Positions 31,857 through 47,577 of a stretch of 64,000 bases of DNA are shown here, in pieces. A program made the position numbers and the translations under genes. The DNA is taken from the NCBI GenBank assembly GCA_017416065.1, contig JAFQDM010000022.1, forward strand, positions 49,460 through 113,459, read 5' to 3'. Source of the stretch: Ruminococcus sp. Lineage in GTDB: Bacteria > Bacillota > Clostridia > Oscillospirales > Acutalibacteraceae. How positions within the stretch are numbered: position 1 is the stretch's first letter; the number at the start of each line of letters is the position of its first letter. The notes below the pieces were generated by a model, which was given only the letters and a program-made list of their open reading frames with translations, was not told the DNA's origin and did no database searches.

Positions 31857-32086
31857 GGCTCCTTTGGGGGAGCTGTCACCGCAGGTGAATGAGGGAGTGT
31901 GGCTCCTCCTTTGGGGGAGCTGTCACCGCAGGTGAATGAGGGAGTATGGCTCCTCCTTTGGGGGAGCTGTCACCGAAGGTGACTGAGGGAGTATGGCTCC
32001 TCCTTTGGGGGAGCTGTCACCGAAGGTGACTGAGGGAGTGTGGCTCCTCCTTTGGGGGAGCTGTCACCGTAGGTGACTGAGGGAGT
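31857..32086. repeat. Five tandem copies of a 47-bp repeat
   Basis: Copies begin at 31857 (44 bp, three bases short), 31901, 31948, 31995 and 32042, with exact 47-base spacing. Each unit contains two potential hairpins: GCTCC...GGAGC around a T/G-run, and GTCACC-N3-GGTGA(C). Variation is concentrated in the hairpin loop (gc/ga/gt) and a following A/C. The last copy supplies the 3' end and stop codon of the DUF559 ORF, so array and gene appear to be one element. Confidence 0.9.
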
Positions 32087-32432
32087 CCCTCACAATAAAA
32101 TCTATATAGTCGCACACACCGCGAAAATTCTCATCTATCTGCCGATTCGTAAACCTGATAACCTTTAAATCATAACCTTTAAGTATTTTTGTACGAAATT
32201 CGTCTTTGCCGATTGCATCTTCTGTGTAGTGCTGCGAACCATCTATTTCTATAACAAGCTTGGCTTTATGACAATAAAAATCCGCAATAAAATTATCTAT
32301 AGCTTTTTGTCTTTGAAACCTGATCTCATATTTTGACAGAAAGTCGTACCACAGATGCTTTTCCTGACGGGTCGCATTCTTACGCAGATTCTGCGCAAGT
32401 TTAATGTTTCTTCCGTTATATTGCAGTGGCAT
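32064..32432 (-). CDS. DUF559-type endonuclease-like protein (Vsr-related fold)
   Basis: 122 residues; the start follows GGAGT. The family pattern RKNATRQEKHLWYDFL.., QKAIDNFIADFYC, LVIEIDGSQHY and KVIRFTNRQID marks a DUF559 domain of the PD-(D/E)XK nuclease superfamily; likely active-site residues are Asp51, Glu62 and Asp64, with His68 following. It is a stand-alone domain with no methylase nearby. The stop lies inside the fifth 47-bp repeat, and the upstream flank (32433-32486) carries further inverted repeats, so it looks like the only gene of a small mobile or repeat-associated element. Confidence 0.8.
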   Translation of the reverse strand: MPLQYNGRNIKLAQNLRKNATRQEKHLWYDFLSKYEIRFQRQKAIDNFIADFYCHKAKLVIEIDGSQHYTEDAIGKDEFRTKILKGYDLKVIRFTNRQIDENFRGVCDYIDFIVRDSLSHLR

Positions 32433-33508: not shown

Positions 33509-33778
33509 ATGCATATTGTACCCGGCTTTATTCTCCGCGAGGTCGCAGGGGAAATCATAGCCATTCCCTCCGGAGAGGCTGCAGCCTCTCTCAGCGGTCT
33601 TGTTGCGCTCAACTCAAGCGGCAAGCTTCTCTTTGATCTGCTGCAAAGTGAGCAAACAGAACAAAGCCTCACACAAGCTATGCTGGAGGCTTACGATATT
33701 GACTGCGCCACGGCACAGGCAGATGTGCAGGAATTCCTTGAGGTTTTCCGCAAAAGCGGAATCCTTGTTGAAGACTGA
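33509..33778 (+). CDS. PqqD-like RiPP recognition element protein
   Basis: 89 residues, the normal size of stand-alone PqqD proteins. The sequence follows the family plan: FILREVAGEIIAIPSGEAAA (beta strands), LVALNSSGKLLFDLLQ (the NxxGxxIWxLL-like block) and the helical ADVQEFLEVFRKSGILVED end. PqqD-type proteins bind the leader peptide of a ribosomal peptide and present it to a modifying enzyme, typically a radical SAM protein. The start follows AGGAGG. It is first of four genes in a tight plus-strand operon. Confidence 0.9.
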   Translation: MHIVPGFILREVAGEIIAIPSGEAAASLSGLVALNSSGKLLFDLLQSEQTEQSLTQAMLEAYDIDCATAQADVQEFLEVFRKSGILVED

Positions 33779-33811
33779 ACACAAATCTTTCAGGAAGGTA
33801 GGTTGAACGAT

Positions 33812-34072
33812 ATGAAAATGAAATATGAAAAGCCAATGGCTGCCGTAGAATTTTATAAGCTCAGCCAGTCCATCGCTTCCTGCATCATAAAGATCAACTA
33901 TCTCAGCAACAGTTGCGTTATTCGTGACAGCGACACACCGGAAGAAATGCGAAGCGTAGCCTTCGACTATCCAAACTACTTCAGCACCGATTGTGCCACC
34001 GTATGTACAAATAACCCCGATTACGACGGACTTTGCTTCCATACGCAGACTAACGCTACCTTTGTTTCTTAA
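33812..34072 (+). CDS. Candidate RiPP precursor peptide (Cys-containing)
   Basis: 86 residues from the ATG at 33812; an in-frame TTG at 33803 is possible, but the GGTAGG site fits the ATG better. The N-terminus MKMKYEKPMAAVEFYKLSQS has the look of a leader (a KYEKP..xVEF motif is common in small clostridial peptides). The C-terminal part holds five Cys (24, 35, 61, 65, 75), many Asn/Thr/Ser/Asp and paired aromatics (DYPNYF, PDYDGLCFH), ending TNATFVS. No signal peptide or enzyme domain. It sits between a PqqD-like gene and the maturation genes, exactly where a substrate peptide is expected. Leader/core boundary and modification are unknown. Confidence 0.7.
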   Translation: MKMKYEKPMAAVEFYKLSQSIASCIIKINYLSNSCVIRDSDTPEEMRSVAFDYPNYFSTDCATVCTNNPDYDGLCFHTQTNATFVS

Positions 34073-34078
34073 TTTTAG

Positions 34079-34945
34079 ATGAACGACACGTTTTCCTTTT
34101 GCATTAATTTTTCAGGGATAACTCTTAGGTTTACCCTGCCCGAAAAAATCATAATTCCCGATTATTTTACAGACCTTCTGTGCGAGGATACCGATGCACC
34201 CACTGCGGAGTATCGAATAGAGCTGCTCAGCTCTCCCCTCTGCCCGGAAGGTTGTGCTGTTTTTGAGAGAAATGATTTCAGCATCTATCCCTTTGAGGAG
34301 GGTATGCTGAGAATCTACACACCCCTTACTGCCCCTGACGGCTGTCAGGTTGCCTGCCTTATGCGAAAAAGCGGCAAAAATGTGCTCTACTACCCTGCCT
34401 GCAGGTGGGAGAAGTATAAAACGGATTGGCACTGCACTCATCTGCTTTGCGGCGAGCTTTTGCTGCGCTTTCAGGACGCTTTATTACTCCACAGCTCCGT
34501 TGTAAGCATAAACGGAAAAGCCGTGCTGTTTTGCGGAGAATCAGGAGCAGGAAAATCTACCCAGGCAAGCCTTTGGAAGGAGCACCTCGGCGCAGAAGTG
34601 CTCAACGGCGACAGATGCGTTATCAAGGAGGATGCAGGGGCCTTCTATGGAGGTGGCTCACCCTGGTGCGGCACCTCAGAAATCTACAGCCCCAAAAGCT
34701 TCCCTATTGCAGGCATAATCCTGATGAAAAAATCCCAGGCAAACACCATTCAGCCCTTGGGTGCAAAGGCCTTCCCCCGAATTTTTTCTCAACTGACGCT
34801 CAACACCTGGGACAAGGATTTTGTGGACTTTGCCTCCTCTAAGCTTGTTCATTTATTAAATTCTGTCCCTGTTTTTGAACTTAACTGCCGACCTGACAAA
34901 GAGGCGGCACACCTTGCATACAACACCCTCTTCACAAAGGAGTGA
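34079..34945 (+). CDS. HPr-kinase-like P-loop protein
   Basis: 288 residues. Walker A GESGAGKST (residues 153-161) is preceded by LLLHSSVVSINGKAVLFC, the arrangement of HPr kinase/phosphorylase C-terminal domains and their RiPP-cluster relatives, followed by LNGDRCVIKED and GGGSPWCG. About 140 N-terminal residues replace the usual HPrK N-domain. In some lasso peptide clusters such kinases phosphorylate the precursor; a similar act on the 33812 peptide is inference. It starts 6 bases after the precursor stop with no visible ribosome site, so it is probably translationally coupled. Confidence 0.8.
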   Translation: MNDTFSFCINFSGITLRFTLPEKIIIPDYFTDLLCEDTDAPTAEYRIELLSSPLCPEGCAVFERNDFSIYPFEEGMLRIYTPLTAPDGCQVACLMRKSGKNVLYYPACRWEKYKTDWHCTHLLCGELLLRFQDALLLHSSVVSINGKAVLFCGESGAGKSTQASLWKEHLGAEVLNGDRCVIKEDAGAFYGGGSPWCGTSEIYSPKSFPIAGIILMKKSQANTIQPLGAKAFPRIFSQLTLNTWDKDFVDFASSKLVHLLNSVPVFELNCRPDKEAAHLAYNTLFTKE

Positions 34946-34950
34946 TTCCT

Positions 34951-36057
34951 ATGGCCCCCACCTCTTCTGCAAATATCCGCAGGCACATTTCTCAGAAATG
35001 CGCCGGAATAGGCATCCCCTCAAGCGGCATATTTGAGCTGACCCCCAGGTGCAACCTGAACTGCAAAATGTGTTATGTCCGATTGACTCCACAGCAGATG
35101 GCCCCCATAGGCAAAGAGCTCTCCGCAGAAAAGTGGTTGTCCCTTGCAAAAGAAGCAAGGGACGCAGGTATGGTATTCCTGCTGATAACAGGGGGCGAGC
35201 CCACTCTGAGGAACGACTTTGCACAGATCTATGAAGGTCTTGCAAGGATGGGACTTTCTATTTCCATCAACACAAACGGTACCCTGATAACCCCCGAGAT
35301 CAAAGCGCTGTGGAAGAAGCTTCCCCCCTCTCAGGTGAACATCACACTCTACGGCACCTGCGCAGAGGATTATCAGTCTTTATGCGGCAACGGCGCCGCT
35401 TTTGATGCTGTAAGCAATGCTATTGGCTGGCTTTTGGAAAACAACATTCTCGTGCACCTCAACGCCACCATAGACCCTGCATCCTACAAAAAATGGCAGG
35501 CTCTGGAGGACTATGCAAAGAACAGGGGGCTGGAGCTCAGAATGCAAAGCTACTGCTTCCCTCCCCTGCGCCGCACACAATGCACCGCCTGCAGCGAATT
35601 TGCACGAATCTCTCCACAAAAAGCGGGCAGATTGGTGGCTGACGAGATCCTTTACAGAGAGGGTGCAGATGCAGTAAGGCTCCGTGCCGAAAGCCTGGGA
35701 TCACCCTTGCAAAAAAGCTGCGACCTGGATCTGGGAGAACCTATGCAATGCCTTGCGGGACGTTCTCAGTTCTGGATCACCTGGAATGGAAATATGACCC
35801 CCTGCGGAACGCTTCCAAAGCCCGAAACCCATCCCTTGGAAGACGGCTTCAACTGCGCCTGGGACAAAATGCGCGCCGCAATAAACTCCATCAGACTTTG
35901 TCCCGATTGTTCAAAATGCGACATCGCAAGTTCTTGTATGAACTGTGCCGCAGTAGTTTTTGACGAGACGGGATCCTTTGACGGAAAACCTGAATATATG
36001 TGCGAGCTCAACAAGGCGTACCGCGCCCGAATAACCGAGCTTGCAGAAAAGCTCTGA
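34951..36057 (+). CDS. Radical SAM/SPASM peptide maturase
   Basis: 368 residues from the ATG at 34951 after GGAG; a GTG three codons earlier is less likely. Radical SAM motif CNLNCKMC (Cys34, 38, 41) binds the SAM-cleaving 4Fe-4S cluster; TGGEPTLR is the SAM-binding GGE motif. The C-terminal SPASM-type region has many Cys: QSYCFPPLRRTQCTAC, QCLAGRSQFWITWNGNMTPCG, and CPDCSKCDIASSCMNC, enough for auxiliary clusters. SPASM enzymes make thioether, C-C or C-O bonds in peptides. It is last in the operon and ends in a strong terminator; the neighbouring Cys-rich peptide is the likely substrate. Confidence 0.92.
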   Translation: MAPTSSANIRRHISQKCAGIGIPSSGIFELTPRCNLNCKMCYVRLTPQQMAPIGKELSAEKWLSLAKEARDAGMVFLLITGGEPTLRNDFAQIYEGLARMGLSISINTNGTLITPEIKALWKKLPPSQVNITLYGTCAEDYQSLCGNGAAFDAVSNAIGWLLENNILVHLNATIDPASYKKWQALEDYAKNRGLELRMQSYCFPPLRRTQCTACSEFARISPQKAGRLVADEILYREGADAVRLRAESLGSPLQKSCDLDLGEPMQCLAGRSQFWITWNGNMTPCGTLPKPETHPLEDGFNCAWDKMRAAINSIRLCPDCSKCDIASSCMNCAAVVFDETGSFDGKPEYMCELNKAYRARITELAEKL

Positions 36058-36071
36058 CAACATAATAACGC

Positions 36072-36114
36072 AAAAGAGGTTGAACCCGTACTGATGGGTT
36101 CAACCTCTTTTTAA
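36072..36114. terminator. Bidirectional terminator
   Basis: AAAAGAGGTTGAACCC / GGGTTCAACCTCTTTT perfect stem with T-run, between the convergent radical SAM and ABC genes. Confidence 0.9.
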
Positions 36115-36142
36115 TATTTATTCACTTATATTTATTCACTTG

Positions 36143-37846
36143 TCAGCCCTGAGATTTATCAATCACCACTGCCTGTCCGCCATCGCCTATCTCAAATATC
36201 ATATCGCAATACTCAAGCATAGACCTGCGATGAGTGATGATAAAGCAGGTCTTGTCTCTGTTTTCCGTAAGCCTTTTGAATATCCGCTTCTCAGTAGCCT
36301 CGTCCAAGGCAGAAGTTGCCTCGTCCAGAATAAGCACGGGTCTGTCTCTCAGAAGTGCTCTGGTAATGGCTATTCTTTGTGCCTGCCCCTCCGAAAGGCC
36401 TCCTGACTTCTCGCTTACTACGGTATCAAGCCCGTCTTCGAACCTGTGCACAAAACGTGCTGCATCTGCCATTTCAAGGGCTTTCCACATCTGCTCCTCA
36501 GTGGCGTTTTCATTGCCCGTGAGCAAATTAGACCTTATGGTGCCCGAGCTCAAAGTATTGCCCTGAGGCACATAAGAGATAAACCGCCTTGAAGCAGGAC
36601 TTATCTTCTCTTCTTTTTCTCCCTCCAGAAGATACACGGCATCTCCCGAATCAGGCTCCACCAAAGATAAAAGCAAACGGATAAACGTGGTCTTGCCTGC
36701 ACCTGAGCTGCCCACGATGCCAACCCTTCTGCCGGGTCTCACCGACAGACAAATACCGCCCAGCACCGGTTCCTTCTCGTATGTAAAAGACACATCCCTT
36801 ACGCAAAGCCCTACCTTCTTTGGTATTCCGGGCACTTCCGTGTACTCCTCAGTATCTCCTTCCGTCAGCTCTCTTACTCTCTTTGCCGCCACAACAGCAG
36901 AGAACATAAGGGGGATGATTCCGCCGATACTCCTTATCGTGCCCTGCAGAATGGAAACCAAAGACAAGAACAAGGTCATTGTTCCGTATGTGTAGCCGTC
37001 CTTAGGGTTTGCAAGTCTGTATGCACACCAGCTGAACGCCACCACGTATCCCATATTATATATAAGCTTCATCACCACGTGCATCACCGCACCCAGCCGT
37101 GAGCTTTTCATAACAAGTGCAAGCCTCTGCTTTCTGAACGCTTTGAGGCGCTTATTGTTGGCATCCTCAAGCTGAAACGCCTTGGTCACGGGAAGATTGG
37201 AGAAAGTCTCCTGAAAGAAGGAATAATACTCCGACTCACTCTCTCTGAGTTTCTTCTGGTATTTTACAAATTTCCTCCTGAATACCGCACCTGCAACAAC
37301 TCCCAAGGGACCAACCACAAGCCCGATAAACGCCATATACGGGTCATAGTAAAGTAAAATCCCCAGCACAATAACAAATTCCACAGCCGCCACAACAAGG
37401 GAGGGCACAATGGAAATAATGGATGACGCTACCGTTCCCACGTCCCCGGTAAGCCTTGAGAGCATATCTCCCGAGTGATATTTGCTGATCTTCTGCCACT
37501 TACTGCGCTGAACCTTGTCAAACATCTGCGCTCTGATTCCAAAGGCAAACTTTTCTCCCACATAGCTGCTGAAAAGAGAGGAGAAAAAAGAAATCACAAT
37601 GGTGATCAAGGTGGTGCCCACCATAGCAACGATGTATTGCCAGAAGACCCTCTGCCCAAAGCCTACTGCCGCATCAACCACGTATTTTCCTATAACGGAA
37701 GAAAGCAGAGTGATCAGCATGGAGATCATATTGATAAGTAAAAATCCCCACGTAAATCTGCGAAAGCCCTTCCCCTGCACAGAAAGCCATTTGATGTTTT
37801 CCTTATTATTCTTCCATTCGCTCCGAAGATTAAACTTTTTCTTCAT
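36143..37846 (-). CDS. ABC exporter (fused membrane and ATPase domains)
   Basis: 567 residues in the ABCB-type half-transporter layout: six-helix transmembrane domain (residues about 25-320), then an ATPase with Walker A GSSGAGKTT, Q-loop SYVPQGNTL, signature LSEGQAQRIAITRAL, Walker B PVLILDEATSALD and H-loop IITHR. There is no N-terminal C39 peptidase domain, so it would need a separate leader peptidase for peptide export. The signature has LSEGQ rather than LSGGQ. It is convergent with the RiPP-like operon, and its product is a plausible exporter of the modified peptide. Confidence 0.88.
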   Translation of the reverse strand: MKKKFNLRSEWKNNKENIKWLSVQGKGFRRFTWGFLLINMISMLITLLSSVIGKYVVDAAVGFGQRVFWQYIVAMVGTTLITIVISFFSSLFSSYVGEKFAFGIRAQMFDKVQRSKWQKISKYHSGDMLSRLTGDVGTVASSIISIVPSLVVAAVEFVIVLGILLYYDPYMAFIGLVVGPLGVVAGAVFRRKFVKYQKKLRESESEYYSFFQETFSNLPVTKAFQLEDANNKRLKAFRKQRLALVMKSSRLGAVMHVVMKLIYNMGYVVAFSWCAYRLANPKDGYTYGTMTLFLSLVSILQGTIRSIGGIIPLMFSAVVAAKRVRELTEGDTEEYTEVPGIPKKVGLCVRDVSFTYEKEPVLGGICLSVRPGRRVGIVGSSGAGKTTFIRLLLSLVEPDSGDAVYLLEGEKEEKISPASRRFISYVPQGNTLSSGTIRSNLLTGNENATEEQMWKALEMADAARFVHRFEDGLDTVVSEKSGGLSEGQAQRIAITRALLRDRPVLILDEATSALDEATEKRIFKRLTENRDKTCFIITHRRSMLEYCDMIFEIGDGGQAVVIDKSQG

Positions 37847-38139: not shown

Positions 38140-41100
38140 ATGAAAAAATTCATTTCTCTTTTAATGGTGCTGTGCGTGCTGTTAACGGCATTCCCCTTCT
38201 GCACAGCAGCAGCAGAAAAAGAAACTCAGACCCCAAACCAGAATGCTTATCCATCCTTTGAAACCGAGGCTTGGGAAGCACTTTATGCCCATGCCATTCC
38301 CGGCTCAGACAGCACGGATGCCTGGCAAAAATGGATGAAGGACTACGCCGGCATTTATGCCGAAGAGGGAGTACGCTACTTCTTCCTGCCCAAATCCTCC
38401 GACGATGGGGTTATTGAGCTCTACAACGGCTACAACGAAGATGCTCTTGTGGGAGATACTCTCATCAAAAACCACACAAGCGCATTTGTTGAGTACACAG
38501 AAGGTGAGACGATCTCCGTAACCGTCGGCACAGACAGAAGCTACAAATTCAAAGTTTACAAGAGTGATGCCGAGGCATCTCTTTATGTTAACGATACAAC
38601 AAACTCCTACGAGGATGCAGAGGGAGTTGTGCAGGAAACCGACCTGTGGAGCTTCCTTATTCAGAACAAAGAAAACTCCTGCTCTACCGCCACCTACTCC
38701 ATTGTAAGCGGCTCAGGAGTTGAAGACGGCGACCTGAAGAAGATCAAGGGCAGAGGCAACACAAACTGGAAGGAAAGCGACAAAAAGCCCTTTAATATCA
38801 ACTTCAACGAAATTACAACCATCGGCCACACCACAAGCAAGAAGTTCTCTCTGGTTGCAAATCCCAAGGATTCCACTCTGCTGAGAAATACAATTATGTA
38901 CAACTTAGCTCATGACGTCGGCAATCCCTACGCCCCCGACCAGAGCTTTATAGACTTCTTTGTAAACGGTGTATACCGCGGCTCGTACATCGCCTGCCAG
39001 AAAATAGATCTGGGCAAAAACGCCGTGGTTTCCTTAAAGGATGAATCCGAAGACATAGAAACAGATTTCAACTTCCTTGTTGAGGTTGACGTGTGGAACT
39101 ACAAAAACGATACTTACTTCAAATCCGGAAAGGGATACCACGTTGTACTCAAGACCCCCGATCTGGAGGATTTTGAAACAAACAGCGAAGCCTACACAGT
39201 CAGATACAACTACATCAAAAACACGTATCAGAAGCTGGAGGACGCTCTCTACAGCGGAACCCTTGCAGATATAGAGGCCATCTGCGACCTGGAGAGCCTT
39301 GCTTCCCAGTACCTGCTTCAGGAGCTGGGCAAAAACTGCGACGGCGGCTACACCAGCACGTTCTTCACCTACAATGCGGCAGAAAAGAAATTCTATGCTT
39401 CCCCCATTTGGGACTGCGACTCTCACTTAGGTGCAGTTGATGTTCTGCGTGAGGGCTGCACAACCTCCACCAGCGACCATACAGGCTGGACAACACGCCT
39501 TGCAAAATATAACGGAACAGTTAACCCCTTGGGCAGATCCTTCTACGTTAAGGGCACCTCATCAAAAGGCGAGACCTTCCAGGATATCTGCAACAGACTT
39601 TGGACGGATTCCTTCCTGCCTAAGATAGACGTGCTCCTTGGCAAGGCAGAGCCTGCAGAAGGCGACAAGGGTATGAGCATAGACAGCTACGCAGAATCCA
39701 TCGAAAAAACCACCTTTATCAACTACCTTATGTGGGATTTTATGTGGCTTTGTCAGGACAAAAACCACAGCCTTGAGGATACCTTCACAGACGACGTTGC
39801 AGGCGAACTGGATTATATGAAGACCTGGCTTGCAAAGAGAACGGAATGGATAACAAACGCCTTTGAAAACGGCGTCACCGACCCTGCTCCTCAGGCAGAC
39901 AGAGTTGTATACTTCACCACAGACCTGGATTGGACAGACGTACACTACTACTATTGGGGCAACAGCATTCCCATGCGCTGGCCCGGCGAAGAAGCTGAAG
40001 CAGTAGGCACCACGGAATACGGCAAAACTATCTACAAGGCAACCATTTCAGATGACGGCATCACAAAGATCATCTTCAACAACGGCAAAGAAGGTGCCCA
40101 GACCGTATCAATCATCATCGAAAACACACCCAAAATTTACTTCACAACAGACGTCTCCGAAAGAATAAACGAGGCAGGCCAGCCCTTCTACAATGTGGAC
40201 TCCACCCCCTACAAGAGCGACGAGCCTGCTCCCACAAAGCCCACGGAAGGATCCTCTGCAACAGATGCAACAGAGCCTTCTTCAGTTGCTCCCACAGAGC
40301 CTTCTTCGGCAATCCCCACCGAACCTTCCTCAGCAGCTCCCACAGAGCCCTCCTCTGTAATACCCTCAGAGCCCGCTACAGCTCCCACTCTCCCCCTCAA
40401 CACCATCTCTGCCTTTGTCTTTGACTCCACAGGCAAAACCGCAGGGGAAAAGCTGGAGGAATACGGCACAAAAGAGGGCTACGCCGCCACCTTGGGCAAC
40501 GGCACCCTGGTTGCAAGCGTAAACTCAGACGGATATAGAGCGTTGGAGTGGTCCGAGGCTGAGTACGGAGAAAACGAAGCGATAGTGCCCATCCTTTCTG
40601 CAGGCAACAAGAACCCCTGGGGTGAGTTCCCTTATGTACAGATGACACTCAGCACCAAGGGTTACAAAGATATAAGCATCTCCCTCACAAGCGCAGGCTC
40701 AAAGAAAGCACCCGCCTCCTGGCAGCTTGCTTACAGCACGGACGGAAAACTCTTTACAATTATTGAAGGAGCTTCCTTCACCATTGCACTTGAAGACAGA
40801 AAGAGCCTCATCAATTACTTTGACAATCTGCAGCTTCCTTCAAATACAGCGGACAAGGATACTCTTATTCTCAGACTTGCCCCCACATCCACAACCACAG
40901 TAAACGGCGGAACAACTGCAGATGACCCCACAGGCGGAGAGCTTGTTCTGAACAATATCATCATCACCGGTGAGCCCATTTCTTCACAACCTCTCCCCTT
41001 ACTTGGAGATGCAGACATGAACGGTTCAGTCAATGTAAAGGACGCAACCGCAATCCAGAAGCACATTGCTGACCTTATCACCCTCAGCGATACAGCTCTT

Positions 41101-41193
41101 GAAGTATGCGATACAAATCACGATTCAAGACTAACCGTGTCAGACGCTACCACAATCCAGAAATTCGTAGCAGGACTCATCAGCAAGTTCTGA
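38140..41193 (+). CDS. Secreted CotH-kinase-family protein with CBM26-like module and type I dockerin
   Basis: 1017 residues from the ATG at 38140 after AAAGGAG. Signal peptide MKKFISLLMVLCVLLTAFPF to AAA. Residues about 150-560 are a CotH-like domain (KGRGNTNWK, RNTIMYNLAHDVG, FLVEVDVW, ASPIWDCDSHLG); CotH proteins are atypical kinases that phosphorylate other secreted proteins. Then a CBM26-like module (588-677, WPGEEAEAV), a PTEPSSA-repeat linker (692-750), a beta domain (754-947) and a C-terminal dockerin (956-1017) with two calcium loops (DADMNGSVNVKD, DTNHDSRLTVSD). The dockerin suggests attachment to a cohesin scaffold. A terminator follows. Confidence 0.88.
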   Translation: MKKFISLLMVLCVLLTAFPFCTAAAEKETQTPNQNAYPSFETEAWEALYAHAIPGSDSTDAWQKWMKDYAGIYAEEGVRYFFLPKSSDDGVIELYNGYNEDALVGDTLIKNHTSAFVEYTEGETISVTVGTDRSYKFKVYKSDAEASLYVNDTTNSYEDAEGVVQETDLWSFLIQNKENSCSTATYSIVSGSGVEDGDLKKIKGRGNTNWKESDKKPFNINFNEITTIGHTTSKKFSLVANPKDSTLLRNTIMYNLAHDVGNPYAPDQSFIDFFVNGVYRGSYIACQKIDLGKNAVVSLKDESEDIETDFNFLVEVDVWNYKNDTYFKSGKGYHVVLKTPDLEDFETNSEAYTVRYNYIKNTYQKLEDALYSGTLADIEAICDLESLASQYLLQELGKNCDGGYTSTFFTYNAAEKKFYASPIWDCDSHLGAVDVLREGCTTSTSDHTGWTTRLAKYNGTVNPLGRSFYVKGTSSKGETFQDICNRLWTDSFLPKIDVLLGKAEPAEGDKGMSIDSYAESIEKTTFINYLMWDFMWLCQDKNHSLEDTFTDDVAGELDYMKTWLAKRTEWITNAFENGVTDPAPQADRVVYFTTDLDWTDVHYYYWGNSIPMRWPGEEAEAVGTTEYGKTIYKATISDDGITKIIFNNGKEGAQTVSIIIENTPKIYFTTDVSERINEAGQPFYNVDSTPYKSDEPAPTKPTEGSSATDATEPSSVAPTEPSSAIPTEPSSAAPTEPSSVIPSEPATAPTLPLNTISAFVFDSTGKTAGEKLEEYGTKEGYAATLGNGTLVASVNSDGYRALEWSEAEYGENEAIVPILSAGNKNPWGEFPYVQMTLSTKGYKDISISLTSAGSKKAPASWQLAYSTDGKLFTIIEGASFTIALEDRKSLINYFDNLQLPSNTADKDTLILRLAPTSTTTVNGGTTADDPTGGELVLNNIIITGEPISSQPLPLLGDADMNGSVNVKDATAIQKHIADLITLSDTALEVCDTNHDSRLTVSDATTIQKFVAGLISKF

Positions 41194-41403: not shown

Positions 41404-42615
41404 ATGAAAACTTTGTTTCTCAGTATTTTATCCTCCGCCCTTACGGATTCCCCCCTTCCGTGCCCAACGCTCAGCACAGAGGAGCTGAGCAATATTCTCA
41501 GGCTCTCAGAGCTCCACAGAGTACTGCCGCTTGTTTACGACAAGCTACACTCCTGCGGCCTCAGGCTGCCCTCGGGCACACCCGTGCACTCACAGGTCAG
41601 ATTGCTTGTATCTCAGCAGACACTGCGCACCCTGTCCTTTGCAGAGGTTTACCGTGCGCTCACACAGCAGGGTCTGTATCCCGTTGTGGTCAAGGGTATC
41701 ATTTGCAGAAGCCTTTACCAAAAGCCCGACCTGCGCATTTCCTCTGACGAAGACCTGCTTGTTTCCCCGGAGGAATACAGTCTATGCCGCAAACTGCTGG
41801 AGGATATGGGTTTTTCTCTCACAAAAGAGGCGGACCCCCTGCATTATCAGCATTCATTCGTAAGAAGCGACGGACTTCACATTGAGGTTCATACCTCTCT
41901 TTTTGATTCCCGCGACTCATTCTTTGACAAATGGAACAATGAGTTTGATGCATGGAAGGACAAAACCATTACCGTTTCAGCAGAAGGAACAGAACTTCTG
42001 ACTCTAAACCCCACAGACCATCTGCTGTATCTCATATTGCACGCACTCAAGCACTTTATCCACAGCGGTGTAGGCATCAGACAGGTGTGCGATATTGCGA
42101 TGCTTGCAAACCGATACGCAAAGGAAACAGACTGGCACCGCTTTGCCGAAAGGTGCAAAGCTCTTAACGCACTCAGATTTGCAATGGGCATATTTGCAGT
42201 AGCCAAAAACCATCTGAATCTCAGCTTGGAGGTATGCAATGCGCTATCCCGCTTTGCACCCTTCCCTTCAAATGAAAGTGATCTTCTTGAAGACATTCTT
42301 TCCGCAGGGGTCTTTGGCAGCGCCACTATGTCCAGGCTTCACAGCGGCATCATAACCTTCAGCGAAGCAAAGAATAAAAACAAGGGAATTTGCAGGCGGA
42401 TCTTCCCTCCTGCAAAAAGCCTCAGCAGTAACTACACTTACGCTAAAAAACACCCCTTGCTTTTACCTGTTGCCTGGGGACACAGACTGCTGCGCTACGG
42501 CAAAGAGATTCAAAGCACAGAGAACAACAGTCCCTTTGAGGCTGTTCAGATAGGAAAACAACGGCTGAAGCTTCTTAAAGAATACGGACTTACCGACTTT
42601 AGCTTATCATATTAA
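41404..42615 (+). CDS. Nucleotidyltransferase-family protein (NTP_transf_5 type)
   Basis: 403 residues; GGGTGG lies upstream. The family core is seen in VVVKGIICRSLYQKPDLRISSDEDLLV and in the following FSLTKEADPLHYQHSFVRSDGLHIEVHTSLF block, i.e. the polymerase-beta-like fold with acidic metal ligands (S-DED). Proteins of this family occur in clusters with HPrK-like and PqqD-like genes, including lasso peptide clusters, and in polysaccharide loci. The reaction has not been clearly defined. Here it leads a six-gene operon with BY-kinases and stands about 3.5 kb from the RiPP-like cluster, so a functional link to that cluster is possible but unproven. Confidence 0.78.
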   Translation: MKTLFLSILSSALTDSPLPCPTLSTEELSNILRLSELHRVLPLVYDKLHSCGLRLPSGTPVHSQVRLLVSQQTLRTLSFAEVYRALTQQGLYPVVVKGIICRSLYQKPDLRISSDEDLLVSPEEYSLCRKLLEDMGFSLTKEADPLHYQHSFVRSDGLHIEVHTSLFDSRDSFFDKWNNEFDAWKDKTITVSAEGTELLTLNPTDHLLYLILHALKHFIHSGVGIRQVCDIAMLANRYAKETDWHRFAERCKALNALRFAMGIFAVAKNHLNLSLEVCNALSRFAPFPSNESDLLEDILSAGVFGSATMSRLHSGIITFSEAKNKNKGICRRIFPPAKSLSSNYTYAKKHPLLLPVAWGHRLLRYGKEIQSTENNSPFEAVQIGKQRLKLLKEYGLTDFSLSY

Positions 42616-42640
42616 TTCAAAATCAAAACGAGGTATGCAT

Positions 42641-43435
42641 ATGAAGAAAAATATTTTTTGCATAATATTGCTTGTATTTTCTATTGCCTCTCTTATCTTC
42701 TTTTTAAAGAGAGAGGAAAAAATAAACGACACCGTTGCCCCTGTGCTTACCTGCGAAAGCGACACCATAAACGCAAGCGTTTCCATTACGGAGGAGGAGC
42801 TTCTGAAGGGGGTAACTGCATTCGATAATCGTGACGGCGACGTGAGCCACACCATAGTTGTGCAGAGCATATCAAACTTTATCAAAGACAACGAGCGAAT
42901 AGTCACCTATGCCGCCATAGACAGTCATATGAACGTTGGCAGAATCGAACGCACCCTTGTGTACACAGACTACAAGGCGCCCACCTTCTCTCTCAGCAAG
43001 CCTTTAAGCTACGTGGTTGGCTCCAGAGTAAACGTTCTTGCCAACATCCGCGCAAAAAGCGTCCTTGACGGAGACATTACAGAAAAGATCCGCTACGGTC
43101 TTGACACCATCATCGACAACCTGACTCCCGGTGTATACCCCGTGGAATTCCGAGTAACCGACAGTTGCGGCAAAACCTCCTACCTGAACACGGAAATAGA
43201 GATCTACGACAACTCCTACTCCGGAATCGACGTTTCCCTCAGCAAATACGTAGTCTACGTTAAGAAGAACTCGGACTTTGATCCGGAAAAATACTATAAA
43301 GGCTCAAACATAGAGGGCGAGCTCTCAATTGTAAATAACGTAAACACCAAAAAAGAAGGCACGTATACCGTGGAATACTTTGTTAACGGTATAAACGCCA
43401 GTGGAAAAAGCAAGCTCCTCGTAGTTGTTCAATGA
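42641..43435 (+). CDS. Membrane-anchored Ig-like (DUF5011-type) protein
   Basis: 264 residues from the ATG at 42641 after GAGGT. A short N-terminal anchor (IFCIILLVFSIASLIFFL) is followed by two or three bacterial Ig-like repeats: DTVAPVLTC..., FDNRDGDVSHTIVV, YTDYKAPTFSLSKPLSYVVGS, LDGDITEKIRYG and VEFRVTDSCGKTSYL, then YFVNGINASGKSKLLVVV. The DUF5011/HYR-like 'DGD' and 'VTD' motifs are diagnostic. It probably projects outside the membrane. It lies in the BY-kinase operon; function unknown. Confidence 0.75.
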   Translation: MKKNIFCIILLVFSIASLIFFLKREEKINDTVAPVLTCESDTINASVSITEEELLKGVTAFDNRDGDVSHTIVVQSISNFIKDNERIVTYAAIDSHMNVGRIERTLVYTDYKAPTFSLSKPLSYVVGSRVNVLANIRAKSVLDGDITEKIRYGLDTIIDNLTPGVYPVEFRVTDSCGKTSYLNTEIEIYDNSYSGIDVSLSKYVVYVKKNSDFDPEKYYKGSNIEGELSIVNNVNTKKEGTYTVEYFVNGINASGKSKLLVVVQ

Positions 43436-43457
43436 GGCTCAAAGAAAGGTTTTACTT

Positions 43458-45005
43458 ATGGAAAACAATAACAAACCAAAATATCTTGATATTGCTTACG
43501 TAGTACTCAGAGATATTCTGAAAAATTGGATAGCAATTGTATGCATAGCTTTGTCTGCGGCTATCTTTGCCTATATATCCGCCGCACTCTGCTATGTTCC
43601 CAGGTTTACCTCCCGATGCACTATGATAGTTTCTGCCAAGGTGAACAACACGGGTGTTTACACAGATACTACAGAAACGGAAAAGCTCACAGACACCATC
43701 AAGGCTGTGCTCACCAGCACCGTGCTCAAAAAGAAAACCGCTGAGCACGTGGGAATGGACTCCTTTGACGGAACCATTAACGTCAACGTTATTCCCACAA
43801 CCAATCTTCTGGAGATTTCTGTCAACAGCCCCAATCCCCACACCTCATTTACTCTGCTGAAGACCCTCCTTGAGATATATCCGGAAATGTCCACAGACAT
43901 TCTGGGAGATATCGTTATGGAGATATTTGAGGAGCCTTCCTTCCCGTCTTCCCCCTCCAACCCCTTCAAATTCAACAGAAACATTTCCCTGAGCGTGCTT
44001 ATTTCTTCAATTGCCATCATCCTCTTTGCGGCCCTTTACTCTTATCTGCTGGATACCGTCAAGGATGAATATGATGCAACAGAAAAGCTGGACACCAAGC
44101 TTCTGGGAATCACCTACCACGAAACCACATATAAAAACCTGAAGGCCCGCCTTCTCAGAAGAAAGAAGCGCTTGCTCATAGGCGCACCCTCCGTCAGCTT
44201 CGGCTTTAACGAAACCATCAAGAAGATCCGCACCAACATAGGATATTACAGGGAGAATCACGGCGGAAAAATACTCCTTGTTACCTCTTATGCACAAGGA
44301 GAGGGCAAGTCAACCATTGCGGCAAACCTTGCGCAGGCTTCAGCACAAAGGCACCAGAAGGTACTGCTTATCTCCGGCTCGCCTTCCACCTCAGCCCTGC
44401 TTGATCTTTTCAACGTCACCCTGCCCGAAGAATTCCTGAACAAAAAGAAATCCGTACTTGAAGACTACATTTACACTCACAAAAACGGAAAGCTTGACAT
44501 TCTCATAAACACATATGACCATATGTACACCACAAATTTTTCGGATTTTATCACACAGAACGAATTTGCCTCCTTTATTGAGGAAGCCAAAGATAAATAC
44601 GACCTTGTAGTCATAGACGGCCCCTCTGCACAAAGCAGCGCAGACACAGAAGTGTTTGCACGCCTTGCAGATTTCTCCGTGCTTGTGGTCAAGCAGCACT
44701 GCTCAAAAACCCCCTTGCTCAACGACACCATTGACACCCTCAATAAGTACAACAACGGCCTTGCAGGCTTCATCTTCAACAACGTTCACTCCTCCGCAAC
44801 CGTCATCAACATAGGCTATGGCTACGGCTACGGACACAAGATAGACTACGGCTACGGAAGATATGGAAAATACGGAAGATACGGCAGCTACGGAAGATAC
44901 GGAAAATACAGCAAATACGGCAAGTACGGAAATTACGGAAACTACGGAAGATACGGCGCCTACTATCAGCACGGCAGATTTGAAGCAAAGAGGAATAAGC
45001 AATGA
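43458..45005 (+). CDS. Wzz/BY-kinase with Tyr/Gly-rich tail and degenerate Walker A'
   Basis: 515 residues. Chain-length-determinant (Wzz) part at about 1-210 with two membrane spans (WIAIVCIALSAAIFAYI; SVLISSIAIILFAALYSYLL). Kinase domain: Walker A AQGEGKST (about residue 280), Walker B LVVIDGP (about 385). The Walker A' block is VLLISGSPSTS instead of the usual LIDxDLR, so the Asp of A' is missing. The C-terminus (about 451-507) is a Tyr-Gly repeat with 18 Tyr in steps of three (RYG/KYG/NYG), the kind of tail BY-kinases autophosphorylate. It overlaps the next gene by 4 bases (ATGA). Confidence 0.88.
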   Translation: MENNNKPKYLDIAYVVLRDILKNWIAIVCIALSAAIFAYISAALCYVPRFTSRCTMIVSAKVNNTGVYTDTTETEKLTDTIKAVLTSTVLKKKTAEHVGMDSFDGTINVNVIPTTNLLEISVNSPNPHTSFTLLKTLLEIYPEMSTDILGDIVMEIFEEPSFPSSPSNPFKFNRNISLSVLISSIAIILFAALYSYLLDTVKDEYDATEKLDTKLLGITYHETTYKNLKARLLRRKKRLLIGAPSVSFGFNETIKKIRTNIGYYRENHGGKILLVTSYAQGEGKSTIAANLAQASAQRHQKVLLISGSPSTSALLDLFNVTLPEEFLNKKKSVLEDYIYTHKNGKLDILINTYDHMYTTNFSDFITQNEFASFIEEAKDKYDLVVIDGPSAQSSADTEVFARLADFSVLVVKQHCSKTPLLNDTIDTLNKYNNGLAGFIFNNVHSSATVINIGYGYGYGHKIDYGYGRYGKYGRYGSYGRYGKYSKYGKYGNYGNYGRYGAYYQHGRFEAKRNKQ

Positions 45006-46387
45006 ATAAAAACAACATTGATATCGACAAAGAAAGACCCGAAAGCGTAGACACCCTGGACCAGCTGGTTATCCTTATTGATTTTCTGAAAATACTCCCA
45101 AGGCTCTGGGTATGGTTTCTGATCCTTGTTATTCTGGGCGGAAGCATCTCCTACTACAAGGCAAGCTCAGAATACTATCCTGTTTACAAGGCATCCTCTA
45201 CGTTTACCATCACCATCAAAAGAGAACAAAGTATTATGGGCAGTGTAGCTTTCTACGATAATGCTGCCGCAGAGCAAATGGCAAAGACCTTCCCCTATAT
45301 TCTCACAAGCTCCCTGCTTCACCGCAAGGTTGCAGCTCATATGGAAAGTCCCGTAACAAGCTCTATAGACGTACACGTAACCCCCAACACCAACCTTCTG
45401 ACCCTTACCGTCACAGACAAAGACCCTCAGAAGGCTTACGATACCCTCAACGCAGTTATCCTGAACTATCCCGATGTTTCTGAGCCTATAGTGGGTAAGG
45501 TTACCATGAAGGTGCTGGATGAATCCGGTCTGCCTACCTCTCCCGCTAACCCCAAGGTATTCATAAAGGATACCCTGATCGGAGCAGGAATCGGCTTTGC
45601 GCTGGGTCTTGTGTGGGCTATACTCGTTTTCCTTACAAACAGAACTATCCAGAAAGAAAGCGACATCAAGAAAAAGCTTGGAATAAAATGCCTTGGCATC
45701 ATTCCAAGAATAGCAAAGAAGAAGCGCTCTAAAGAGGTTTCCAGATATTTTGTCCTCACAGACCCCAAGGCAAAGGACTTCCTTCAGGAATCCTTCCGTA
45801 TGGTCAGAAACAAGGTGGAATACCACGCTCATAAATATAAGCACAAGACCATTCTTGTCACCAGTGCCGCCGCAGGTGAAGGCAAGAGCTTTTTTGCCGC
45901 AAACCTGGCGCTCTCACTTGTAACAACAGGCAAGAAGGTCGTTCTCATCGACTGCGACCTGAGGCATCCTACAGGCAGGCTCATCTTCCAGATGGAGCAA
46001 AGCACCGGTCTCGGAGAATATCTTAAGGGCGAAACCGATCTGGAGACCTATCTGCAAAACGCAAAAGCTCAGAACATACACGAGTTTCCGAACTTCTTGT
46101 TCCTCCCGGGCGGCGCTCCTGTTCCCGACGGATCCCACTTGCTTTCAAGCACCCGAATGCAGAATCTCATTGAATGCGTAAAAGCAAAGACTGACTATGT
46201 AATCCTTGACTGTGCTCCCGCCGGTCTGCTCACAGACCCTGCCGTGCTTGCAAAATATGCAGAATCTGCTCTGCTTGTTATCAGAAAGGACTTTGCCCGT
46301 GTTGACTTTATCAGCGAGGCATTGGCTCACCTTTCCGAAAGCAACATTCATATCATCGGCGGTGTTCTCAACGATGTGCAGGTGTAA
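45002..46387 (+). CDS. Wzz/BY-kinase paralogue with intact Walker motifs but no Tyr tail
   Basis: 461 residues. Wzz-type N-terminal domain with two membrane spans (about 40-65 and 190-215), then a tyrosine-kinase domain with Walker A AAGEGKSFFAANLAL (about 290), Walker A' VVLIDCDLRHP (about 315-322) and Walker B YVILDCAP (about 402). It ends IIGGVLNDVQV with no tyrosine cluster, so it cannot make the normal C-terminal phosphotyrosine tail. Overlapping start with the upstream paralogue (TGA/ATG) implies stoichiometric synthesis. It likely provides the active kinase module of a paired system. Confidence 0.9.
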   Translation: MNKNNIDIDKERPESVDTLDQLVILIDFLKILPRLWVWFLILVILGGSISYYKASSEYYPVYKASSTFTITIKREQSIMGSVAFYDNAAAEQMAKTFPYILTSSLLHRKVAAHMESPVTSSIDVHVTPNTNLLTLTVTDKDPQKAYDTLNAVILNYPDVSEPIVGKVTMKVLDESGLPTSPANPKVFIKDTLIGAGIGFALGLVWAILVFLTNRTIQKESDIKKKLGIKCLGIIPRIAKKKRSKEVSRYFVLTDPKAKDFLQESFRMVRNKVEYHAHKYKHKTILVTSAAAGEGKSFFAANLALSLVTTGKKVVLIDCDLRHPTGRLIFQMEQSTGLGEYLKGETDLETYLQNAKAQNIHEFPNFLFLPGGAPVPDGSHLLSSTRMQNLIECVKAKTDYVILDCAPAGLLTDPAVLAKYAESALLVIRKDFARVDFISEALAHLSESNIHIIGGVLNDVQV

Positions 46388-46390
46388 GCC

Positions 46391-46852
46391 GTGAAGACTA
46401 TAGATACAAAGGCTTTTCTTGACACTCTCTGCGAGCTTGCCGAAAAAGGCGAGACCGTATGCACCGTTGTGTCCGGCGGAAGTATGCTCCCCTTCCTTTC
46501 AGGAGGCAGGGATCACGTATTTCTGCAAAAGCCTGTAAGCAGGCTTAAAAAAGGCGACATCGTTCTGTTCACACGGAAAAACGGGGATTACGTTCTCCAC
46601 CGTATAAAGAGCGCAGACTCCAAGGGATACTACCTTTTGGGAGACAGGCAGACTACCCCCGAGGGCCCCGTGGATGAAAGCCGCATCCGCTGTGTTGCCG
46701 TTAAGGTCAGGCGCAAAGGGAAAATACTTAGTCCGAACAGTTTCTGCTGGAAATTTTTCAGTATCGTCTGGATCCGCACGGTATTCCTCAGACCTGCCAT
46801 ATTTGCTATGATCGGAATTTTTCACAAGAATAACAGAAAGCCCAAGAGTTAG
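46391..46852 (+). CDS. S26-family (Ser-His, SipW/ER-type) signal-peptidase-like protein
   Basis: 153 residues from a GTG at 46391, 3 bases after the preceding stop. Box with the catalytic Ser is GGSMLPFLSG (Ser31); a His in DYVLHRI (His70) takes the place of the Lys of bacterial type I peptidases; YYLLGDRQ is the GD box. One hydrophobic segment is near the C-terminus (FSIVWIRTVFLRPAIFAMIG). Similar S24/S26 proteins occur in peptide-modification clusters, where they may remove leaders; here the operon neighbours are BY-kinases and a phosphatase. Substrate unknown. Confidence 0.8.
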   Translation: MKTIDTKAFLDTLCELAEKGETVCTVVSGGSMLPFLSGGRDHVFLQKPVSRLKKGDIVLFTRKNGDYVLHRIKSADSKGYYLLGDRQTTPEGPVDESRIRCVAVKVRRKGKILSPNSFCWKFFSIVWIRTVFLRPAIFAMIGIFHKNNRKPKS

Positions 46853-46863
46853 GAGGCGCCGCT

Positions 46864-47577
46864 ATGATTGATATACATTGCCACATTCTGCCCGGAATGG
46901 ACGATGGTGCCCGTGATGTTTACGACACCATGGAGATGGCGCTGATTGCCGCTAACAGCGGAGTTAAAGCCATTGTTGCCACTCCGCATTGCAACATTCC
47001 CTGGGACAAAAGCAACTACTACAACTCCTTTTACAGAGAATCCCTGCAAAAGGCCCGTGATGCCATTGCCCAGGAGCGCATACCCATAAAAATACTCACG
47101 GGAATGGAGGTCTTTGTGACCTTTGATCTGCCCGAGCTTATAAAAGAAGGCAAGATACTCACCATCAACCACAGCGACTATCTGCTGATTGAGTTCGATT
47201 TCGGCGAGGACCCGGAGTTTGTGGATATTATGGCAGACCGTTTGATGGAGATTGGCATCAAGCCCATCATTGCCCATCCTGAGAGATATGATTTTGTTAA
47301 AGAAGACATTAATTTTGCCAAAAGGCTGGTCAAAAAAGGCTGTATTCTCCAGGCAAACAAGGGAAGCTTTCTTCAGAAATACGGAGAAAGATCAGAGAAG
47401 ATCGCAACAGAGCTTGCAAAGGAGAATCTTCTGGGGGTAGTGGCCAGCGACGCCCACAGCCCGTACAGGCGCACACCTTATCTGCTTGAGGCTCGACGCA
47501 CCATCAAAGACATATGCAACACAGAAGCGCTTTTTGAGATAAATCCACAGAGAATAGTTGTTAATCAACCTCTTTAA
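46864..47577 (+). CDS. PHP-family protein-tyrosine phosphatase (CpsB/YwqE-like)
   Basis: 237 residues, the usual length of CpsB. PHP metal-binding motifs are present: DIHCHILPGMDDGA, VATPH, GMEVFV, HPERYDF and SDAHS. CpsB/YwqE enzymes are manganese-dependent phosphatases that dephosphorylate the tyrosine tail of BY-kinases. It follows the two BY-kinase genes in the same operon and is the obvious counterpart of the tail at 43458-45005. The operon ends with a terminator. Confidence 0.93.
   Translation: MIDIHCHILPGMDDGARDVYDTMEMALIAANSGVKAIVATPHCNIPWDKSNYYNSFYRESLQKARDAIAQERIPIKILTGMEVFVTFDLPELIKEGKILTINHSDYLLIEFDFGEDPEFVDIMADRLMEIGIKPIIAHPERYDFVKEDINFAKRLVKKGCILQANKGSFLQKYGERSEKIATELAKENLLGVVASDAHSPYRRTPYLLEARRTIKDICNTEALFEINPQRIVVNQPL

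Follow-up and report, generated by a model that had tools for sequence, protein, structure and literature searches.

The 64,000-nucleotide stretch of Ruminococcus sp. DNA analysed here (hereafter the window) contains a tight plus-strand operon encoding a discrete recognition element (RRE) of the PqqD family for ribosomally synthesized and post-translationally modified peptides (RiPPs), a small Cys-containing peptide, an HPrK-like kinase and a radical S-adenosylmethionine (SAM)/SPASM enzyme, with an MsbA-like ATP-binding cassette (ABC) exporter lying convergent beside it (Table 1). An initial annotation had placed these five genes, and open reading frames (ORFs) and domain scans confirmed all of them at their positions. 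Successive plus-strand genes are spaced by just 33, 6 and 5 bases, so a single transcript is likely. Based on the genomic comparisons described below, we consider that the operon probably makes a radical SAM-cross-linked RiPP with a phosphate on its C-terminal Ser; it would resemble the kinase-type lasso peptides in this phosphate but lack the lasso fold.

The domain content of the window was examined using Pfam and NCBIfam. The exporter lacked a C39 domain in the Pfam scan, as initially annotated, though an S24/S26-type peptidase gene is present farther along. The reported lack of a lasso cyclase also held: none of the 14 genes scanned from 32 to 48 kb contained an Asn-synthetase-like cyclase or a B2 domain, and a lasso peptide was rejected on these grounds. 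The SPASM match of the radical SAM enzyme was weak (0.059), and the protein carries both the CX3CX2C motif and the SPASM cysteines, the latter assigned by the SPASM consensus. Among 40 aligned radical SAM enzymes, C34/C38/C41, C285, C320, C323, C329, C332, C351 and G280 were invariant and C267 was nearly so; for alignments A1 and A2, 39 relatives were hand-picked out of the loci described below. The HPrK likeness of the kinase is only remote, since its Hpr_kinase_C score was 15.5 bits against a cut-off of 33.3 and its HprK_rel_A match (8.7e-5) fell far below the cut-off, while a profile of 40 chosen kinase relatives found the HprK structures 1jb1/2qmh at 4.4e-4. Residues H138, K159 and D178 were identical in all 84 aligned kinases. 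The housekeeping HprK was rejected as an identity for this gene, because the strong Hpr_kinase_C match of the genome (241 bits) sits on contig C17. Terminator-like sites were no commoner in the overall scan than in shuffled sequence (6 against a mean of 5.3); the stem between the operon and the exporter has 18 pairs.

Table 1. Features of the operon and its surroundings (window coordinates)
Feature	Position	Strand	Remarks
Lipoprotein, 237 aa	32487..33200	-	Divergent from PqqD; blastp 8.7e-25 to L174|4736
Discrete RRE, PqqD family, 89 aa	33509..33778	+	Pfam PqqD 7.4e-13
Precursor peptide, 86 aa	33812..34072	+	ATG at 33812; 5 Cys; YxxP leader; terminal Ser86
HPrK-like kinase, 288 aa	34079..34945	+	Remote profile matches; H138, K159, D178
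Radical SAM/SPASM enzyme, 368 aa from ATG	34951..36057	+	Pfam Radical_SAM 2.6e-21; Cys pattern
18-pair stem	36072..36111		Terminator-like on both strands; separates convergent operon and exporter
MsbA-like ABC exporter	36143..37846	-	Best NCBIfam match MsbA, below cut-off
NTP_transf_5 nucleotidyltransferase	41404..42615	+	Pfam 9.2e-51; possible further phosphate tailoring
Capsule-type neighbourhood	42635..47577	+	Ig-like surface protein, two AAA/Wzz-like proteins, S26 gene, CpsB/CapC protein
S24/S26-type peptidase	46391..46852	+	Pfam Peptidase_S24 4e-5; Ser31, His70, Asp85; possible leader peptidase

Recurrence of the cassette in related genomes

A radical SAM enzyme of this kind was present in 53 of 398 same-family genomes and absent at E 1e-25 from the five same-genus genomes compared, so its distribution is patchy; at the order level, 15 of 394 genomes matched at E 1e-30. 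Loci were defined as stretches around radical SAM matches from the family and order genome searches and from GTDB contigs, the latter contributing the best 19 of 74 loci. The resulting 104 stretches, window included, were reduced to 102 by removing L195 (radical SAM not detected, TAG inside) and L159 (same contig as L076). The 102 loci still include groups with near-identical radical SAM proteins, namely those of L211/L212 (99.7%), L204/L206/L209 (93-95%) and L194/L197 (91%).

The initial annotation had proposed looking for the same gene order in other genomes, and the gene set recurred. Within 6 kb of the radical SAM gene we found a kinase in 82 of the 102 loci, PqqD in 74 and a precursor in 63, as well as an MsbA-like exporter in 37, an S26-type peptidase in 29 and an NTP_transf_5 protein in 22. 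Two further loci encode a fusion of the two enzymes, radical SAM-kinase in L071 and, the other way round, kinase-radical SAM in L141, bringing the kinase-linked loci to 84 of 102. These fusions may reflect a lost stop codon or an assembly error, L071 coming from a metagenome bin and L141 from an assembly of about 230 contigs. That the two enzymes act on different targets and share a locus by chance or co-regulation is very unlikely. This explanation would account for the 18 loci with no kinase fused or within 6 kb and for two other HPrK-like genes of the window's own genome that lie in stretches devoid of radical SAM genes; the fusions in two orders and the linkage in 84 of 102 loci speak against it, as do unlinked kinases, which adjoin the same precursor family.

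Gene order was analysed together with the type of precursor: those termed terminal-Ser end in Ser, and those termed core-Ser lack this end and carry a Ser at core position 2-3. The most frequent same-strand order, precursor-kinase-radical SAM-PqqD, occurred in 18 loci, of which 17 are terminal-Ser and one has a truncated precursor. The order exporter-PqqD-radical SAM-precursor-kinase-S26-NTP_transf_5, all in the same direction, was found in seven loci (L082, L204, L205, L206, L207, L209 and L210), all core-Ser, while L150 and L151, both terminal-Ser, have NTP_transf_5-PqqD-precursor-radical SAM-kinase-exporter-S26 in one direction. The core-Ser subclass comprises the seven loci above plus L079, L081, L158, L201, L203 and L208. 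The main text of PMC13381572 (2026) gives a kinase, an RRE, an NTP_transf_5 protein, an S26-type peptidase and an MsbA-like exporter as the core set of linear polyphosphorylated peptide (LPP) systems, and the seven core-Ser and two terminal-Ser one-direction loci are this set plus a radical SAM enzyme. The initial annotation had described the combination as a RiPP class it did not recognise; the set without the radical SAM enzyme is therefore already on record as LPP, and the radical SAM enzyme is what is added here.

Leader, core and terminal serine of the precursors

The window precursor has a leader with Y5xxP8, core cysteines at C24, C35, C61, C65 and C75, and Ser86 as its last residue (codon 34067-34069). 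It gave no Pfam or NCBIfam match at E 1; when 28 precursors were scanned against both databases, the window peptide had none above cut-off and the rest gave scattered weak matches. Related precursors were identified through the leader alone, by a model spanning at most about 23 residues, and hence independently of their C termini, although the first seeds of that model stemmed from a full-length search; open-ended or opposite-strand frames were removed before counting, and precursors were made non-redundant at 60% identity. The distance from the Tyr/Trp of [Y/W]xxP to the Ala of a downstream 'IA' was 18 residues in 34 of 39 matches; the five precursors with 'IA' at offset 10 were taken to contain an earlier chance IA. 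Leader cleavage after A22 is predicted for the window precursor. The existence of this family led us to reject the possibility that the 86-aa peptide is a chance ORF.

A terminal Ser was present in 46 of the 59 non-redundant leader-found precursors, compared with 4.8% of 1026 ORFs of at least 200 aa and 9.9% of 7664 small ORFs, these background values referring to ORFs and not to confirmed genes; binomial figures for the excess disregard relatedness and should not be read as probabilities. In alignment A3 (28 chosen precursors, mean column identity 27%) the only invariant columns were Y5, C24, C75 and S86. Genome searches with models A3 and A4, which include the last residue and found places partly overlapping the earlier set, returned 39 loci with 40 precursor frames, 38 of them Ser-ended; the other two were truncated-looking (L147 and L166). 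L265, found at the same place as L147, contains a second, Ser-ended fragment in another frame. Precursors matching A3 were present in 25 of the 398 same-family genomes, all 25 among the 53 with the radical SAM enzyme and none among the other 345; the hypergeometric value of 3e-25 overstates this co-occurrence, as A3 was built from peptides beside such enzymes and many of the genomes are the same.

The 13 precursors without a terminal Ser consist of ten with a Ser at core position 2-3, the truncated L147 and L166, and L073, in whose stretch no kinase was found. This raises the alternative that the kinase phosphorylates a Ser near the core start, with the terminal Ser serving recognition, export or stability. 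It is in line with those ten precursors, with the report in the main text of PMC13381572 that LppK acts on core S3, and with the window core, which would begin with Ser23 if cut after Ala22. A core-start Ser is not conserved among terminal-Ser precursors, however, whereas Ser86 is one of the four invariant A3 columns, and we regard this alternative as rather unlikely compared with phosphorylation at the C terminus.

According to the initial annotation, homologous loci lacking the peptide would argue against the pathway. The leader model gives a precursor in 59 of the 84 kinase loci, and a relaxed scan found candidates in nine more, with a second-family precursor lying farther off in four more genomes. 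This leaves 12 kinase loci with no precursor recognised in the stretch; three of these stretches (L066, L190 and L224) are very short or begin within the kinase gene, and for L190 a precursor is present on a different contig of the genome. Members of the second precursor family (YCKFTSA-like ...S) were seen in L140, L144, L152, L170 and L238-L242, at a distance of several kb from the radical SAM and kinase genes or on a separate contig. Radical SAM genes are also accompanied by Cys peptides of the MYQ[SA]PD type in L196, L199 and L202, which have no kinase within 6 kb.

The window PqqD protein carries the Tyr-type pocket residues N35, Y62, D72 and F76, its other pocket residues differing from those of LppB; the positions were mapped by a constant two-place shift from the LppB residues named in PMC13381572 and not by structure. 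According to the main text of that paper, N33, Y60, D70 and F74 of LppB belong to the residues that surround the Tyr and Pro of the leader, and WxxP systems have a different RRE pocket. Asp was present at position 72 in 48 of 48 YxxP loci, in one of six WxxP loci and in 17 of 20 loci without an assigned precursor. D72 thus tracks YxxP versus WxxP leaders, which ties PqqD to the adjoining peptide.

Kinase types and a proposed pathway

To relate the kinase to the type of precursor, we used a tree of the 84 kinases, drawn with a midpoint root. A clade of 50 (support 97/89) contains 36 terminal-Ser loci, no core-Ser locus, 12 loci without a precursor and two with truncated ones, and a clade of 14 (support 100/96) contains 11 core-Ser loci, two terminal-Ser loci and one with none. 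The association between Ser type and clade gives a Fisher value of 2.7e-9, which ignores relatedness. Label changes on the tree numbered 4 for core-Ser against 12.3 after shuffling, and 17 against 28.3 for terminal-Ser. The tree therefore largely separates the two types, with exceptions.

Several observations weigh against phosphorylation of the terminal Ser. Two terminal-Ser rows lie inside the core-Ser clade of 14, the core-Ser loci L079 and L081 and six terminal-Ser rows fall outside both clades, and the window kinase, on a long branch, has a best identity of 28% and no closer supported kin within the clade of 50. Position 179 of the kinase is K or R in 80 of 84 sequences and Asp in none; the lasso-kinase His-Lys-Asp-Asp motif is thus matched at three residues at most, in an alignment that includes no lasso kinase. 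In kinase loci L192, L193, L194, L197 and L198, the YQSPD-type peptides terminate in V, P or I and show no evident Ser in the core, and the kinases of these loci form a separate clade; a conserved Ser site was not seen among the MYQ[SA]PD-type peptides (L192-L194, L196-L199, L202). The candidate peptides of L072 and L080 end in Thr and Pro, respectively, and L142, L172 and L181 have a Ser-ended precursor yet no local kinase. The terminal Ser could also stem from shared ancestry or from recognition by another protein. As for the putative tailoring genes, NTP_transf_5 and S26 lie outside the window operon, at ~5 kb and ~10 kb. Just 34 of the 84 kinase loci have either gene within 6 kb (15 have both), so neither is a constant part of the system, and none of the 18 precursor-kinase-radical SAM-PqqD loci has one on the same strand within 6 kb.

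L142, L172 and L181 belong to one genus, in which four of four genomes have a kinase elsewhere, and this unlinked kinase adjoins a further terminal-Ser precursor in two (L230/L269 and L247). Since HPrK-like genes are frequent, occurring in 99 of 200 family genomes, finding a kinase elsewhere was not counted as proof. Other candidate peptides without a local kinase end in G (L073, L211, L212), L (L083, L202), Y (L196), P (L199), F (L221, opposite strand) and I (L229). The difference between the non-Ser ends of these nine kinase-less loci and the Ser ends accompanied by a kinase elsewhere is only suggestive, a kinase elsewhere having been sought only in the genus of L142, L172 and L181.

Peptidase, NTP transferase and exporter genes are all located at 36.1-46.9 kb in the window. 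At E 0.001 the genome gives two S26-like matches and four NTP_transf_5-like ones, so chance placement of the peptidase and NTP transferase genes near the operon is unlikely (by rough estimate a few percent each). The lipoprotein family, detected by a hidden Markov model, occurs in 32 of the 102 loci and in several of them sits between precursor and kinase; these 32 comprise 25 terminal-Ser loci, two with truncated precursors and five with no precursor, and the family was found in none of the 13 core-Ser and none of the six WxxP loci. The window lipoprotein had no Pfam or NCBIfam match above cut-off, and the others among the 16 lipoproteins scanned gave scattered weak matches. We conclude that this lipoprotein, which the initial annotation had overlooked, belongs to the system, perhaps as an immunity protein or a receiver.

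Other genes were noted in the surroundings. The gene at 38140-41190 (+), immediately next to the cluster, encodes a CotH kinase-like protein that bears CBM26 and dockerin type I domains, and a 3848-aa protein with GH20 and six CBM26 stretches is encoded at 20207-31753 (-). Small ORFs, presumably nuclease-like and akin to DUF559, recur beside the clusters (32064-32432 (-) in the window; L151|8087, L171|6552, L171|8408 and L173|6180). L161, from the window's own genome, and L163 and L165, from the same genus, hold partial kinase/PqqD/NTP_transf_5/S26/exporter sets with no radical SAM gene or recognised YxxP peptide; they adjoin dockerin-like or repeat proteins and possibly serve a different substrate.

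From the gene content and its recurrence, the conserved leader, cysteines and terminal Ser, the fusions and the pocket covariation, we infer the following pathway. The PqqD protein would bind the YxxP leader of the 86-aa precursor and present the precursor to two enzymes. The radical SAM/SPASM enzyme would modify the Cys-containing core, most likely by a thioether or C-C cross-link, and the kinase would add one or more phosphates to the side chain of the C-terminal Ser, as lasso kinases do. Cleavage after Ala22, for which the S26-type peptidase is a candidate, would remove the leader, the NTP_transf_5 protein may act further on the phosphate, and an MsbA-like exporter would secrete the product. 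The kinase site is the best-supported step of this scheme, and the radical SAM product and the peptidase are the least supported. The initial proposal that one peptide receives both a radical SAM modification and a phosphate has gained strong genomic support from recurrence, fusions, terminal Ser and RRE covariation, and stands as a prediction from sequence.

Two variants concern the fate of the phosphate. It might be a transient leaving group, or a mark gating a later step such as leader removal, and be absent from the product; this is improbable, considering that a scan of 14 genes at 32-48 kb found no lyase domain and that phosphate is retained in the kinase-modified lasso peptides described in the available text of PMC9266682. 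Alternatively, the phosphoserine could be an acceptor to which the NTP_transf_5 protein, acting as PsmN does, and the capsule-type genes add a sugar or glycan, so that the cross-linked peptide would be displayed on, or cap, a surface polysaccharide, with the lipoprotein receiving it. We consider this elaboration unlikely; if true, it would mean that, within the superfamily, the phosphate anchor has switched from one end of the core to the other.

Comparison with known systems

Several known RiPP systems share parts of this cassette. In sactipeptides and ranthipeptides a radical SAM/SPASM enzyme likewise adjoins a Cys-containing precursor, the linkage here being predicted only; the window system differs in having a discrete RRE and a kinase, and its scores fall below the cut-offs of the named maturases. 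The SynChlorMet cassette (NCBIfam TIGR04249, TIGR04250 and TIGR04251) names a kinase-like protein, ScmC, together with two radical SAM/SPASM proteins, and matches to ScmC reach E 0.01 or lower for 33 of 40 kinases. The window proteins nevertheless score far under the ScmC, ScmE and ScmF cut-offs (18.5 against 125, 64.3 against 400 and 56.6 against 400 bits), and no paper was found under the SynChlorMet name in the open-licence literature. A search of the same literature, covering article texts, found no described pathway in which radical SAM modification occurs together with HPrK-type phosphorylation; the available text of a 2014 mining paper (PMC4289311) mentions HPr kinase once, in lasso clusters.

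Lasso peptides with a kinase, such as paeninodin and pseudomycoidin, share with the window system an HPrK-like kinase, a nucleotidyltransferase, a discrete RRE and a precursor with a C-terminal Ser. As described in the available text of the review PMC9266682, PadeK, ThcoK, SyanK and PsmK phosphorylate lasso precursors at the C-terminal Ser, and PsmN is required for the hexose on the phosphate of pseudomycoidin. By contrast, the window system has a radical SAM enzyme, and the genes scanned contain no macrolactam cyclase or B2 protease domain.

LPP has in common with the window system a discrete RRE with a Tyr-type pocket, a YxxP leader (the leader Tyr being residue -16 in the main text of PMC13381572), an HprK-like kinase and a capsule-locus setting; genes for an S26/SipW-like peptidase, an NTP transferase and an MsbA-like exporter are likewise present, in the window outside the operon. 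Unlike the reported LPP core set, which is without radical SAM and has phosphorylation as its primary modification, the window system has a radical SAM/SPASM enzyme in the operon and a lipoprotein, and its conserved Ser lies at the C terminus and not at core position 3. The terms 'radical SAM', 'rSAM' and 'SPASM' do not occur in the main text of PMC13381572, where 'S-adenosyl' appears in one reference only. These comparisons support a radical SAM-bearing branch of the phosphorylated-RiPP group, which would bring together two kinds of RiPP chemistry, the radical SAM modification of a core and its phosphorylation by an HPrK-type kinase. The predicted site is an exact residue, Ser86, and the core-Ser relatives provide a natural contrast with the site at the opposite end of the core. 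The system may represent a gut-type Clostridia counterpart to the LPP and paeninodin systems of Bacilli, in the window likewise beside capsule genes, and it bears on what LPP- and paeninodin-type peptides are for.

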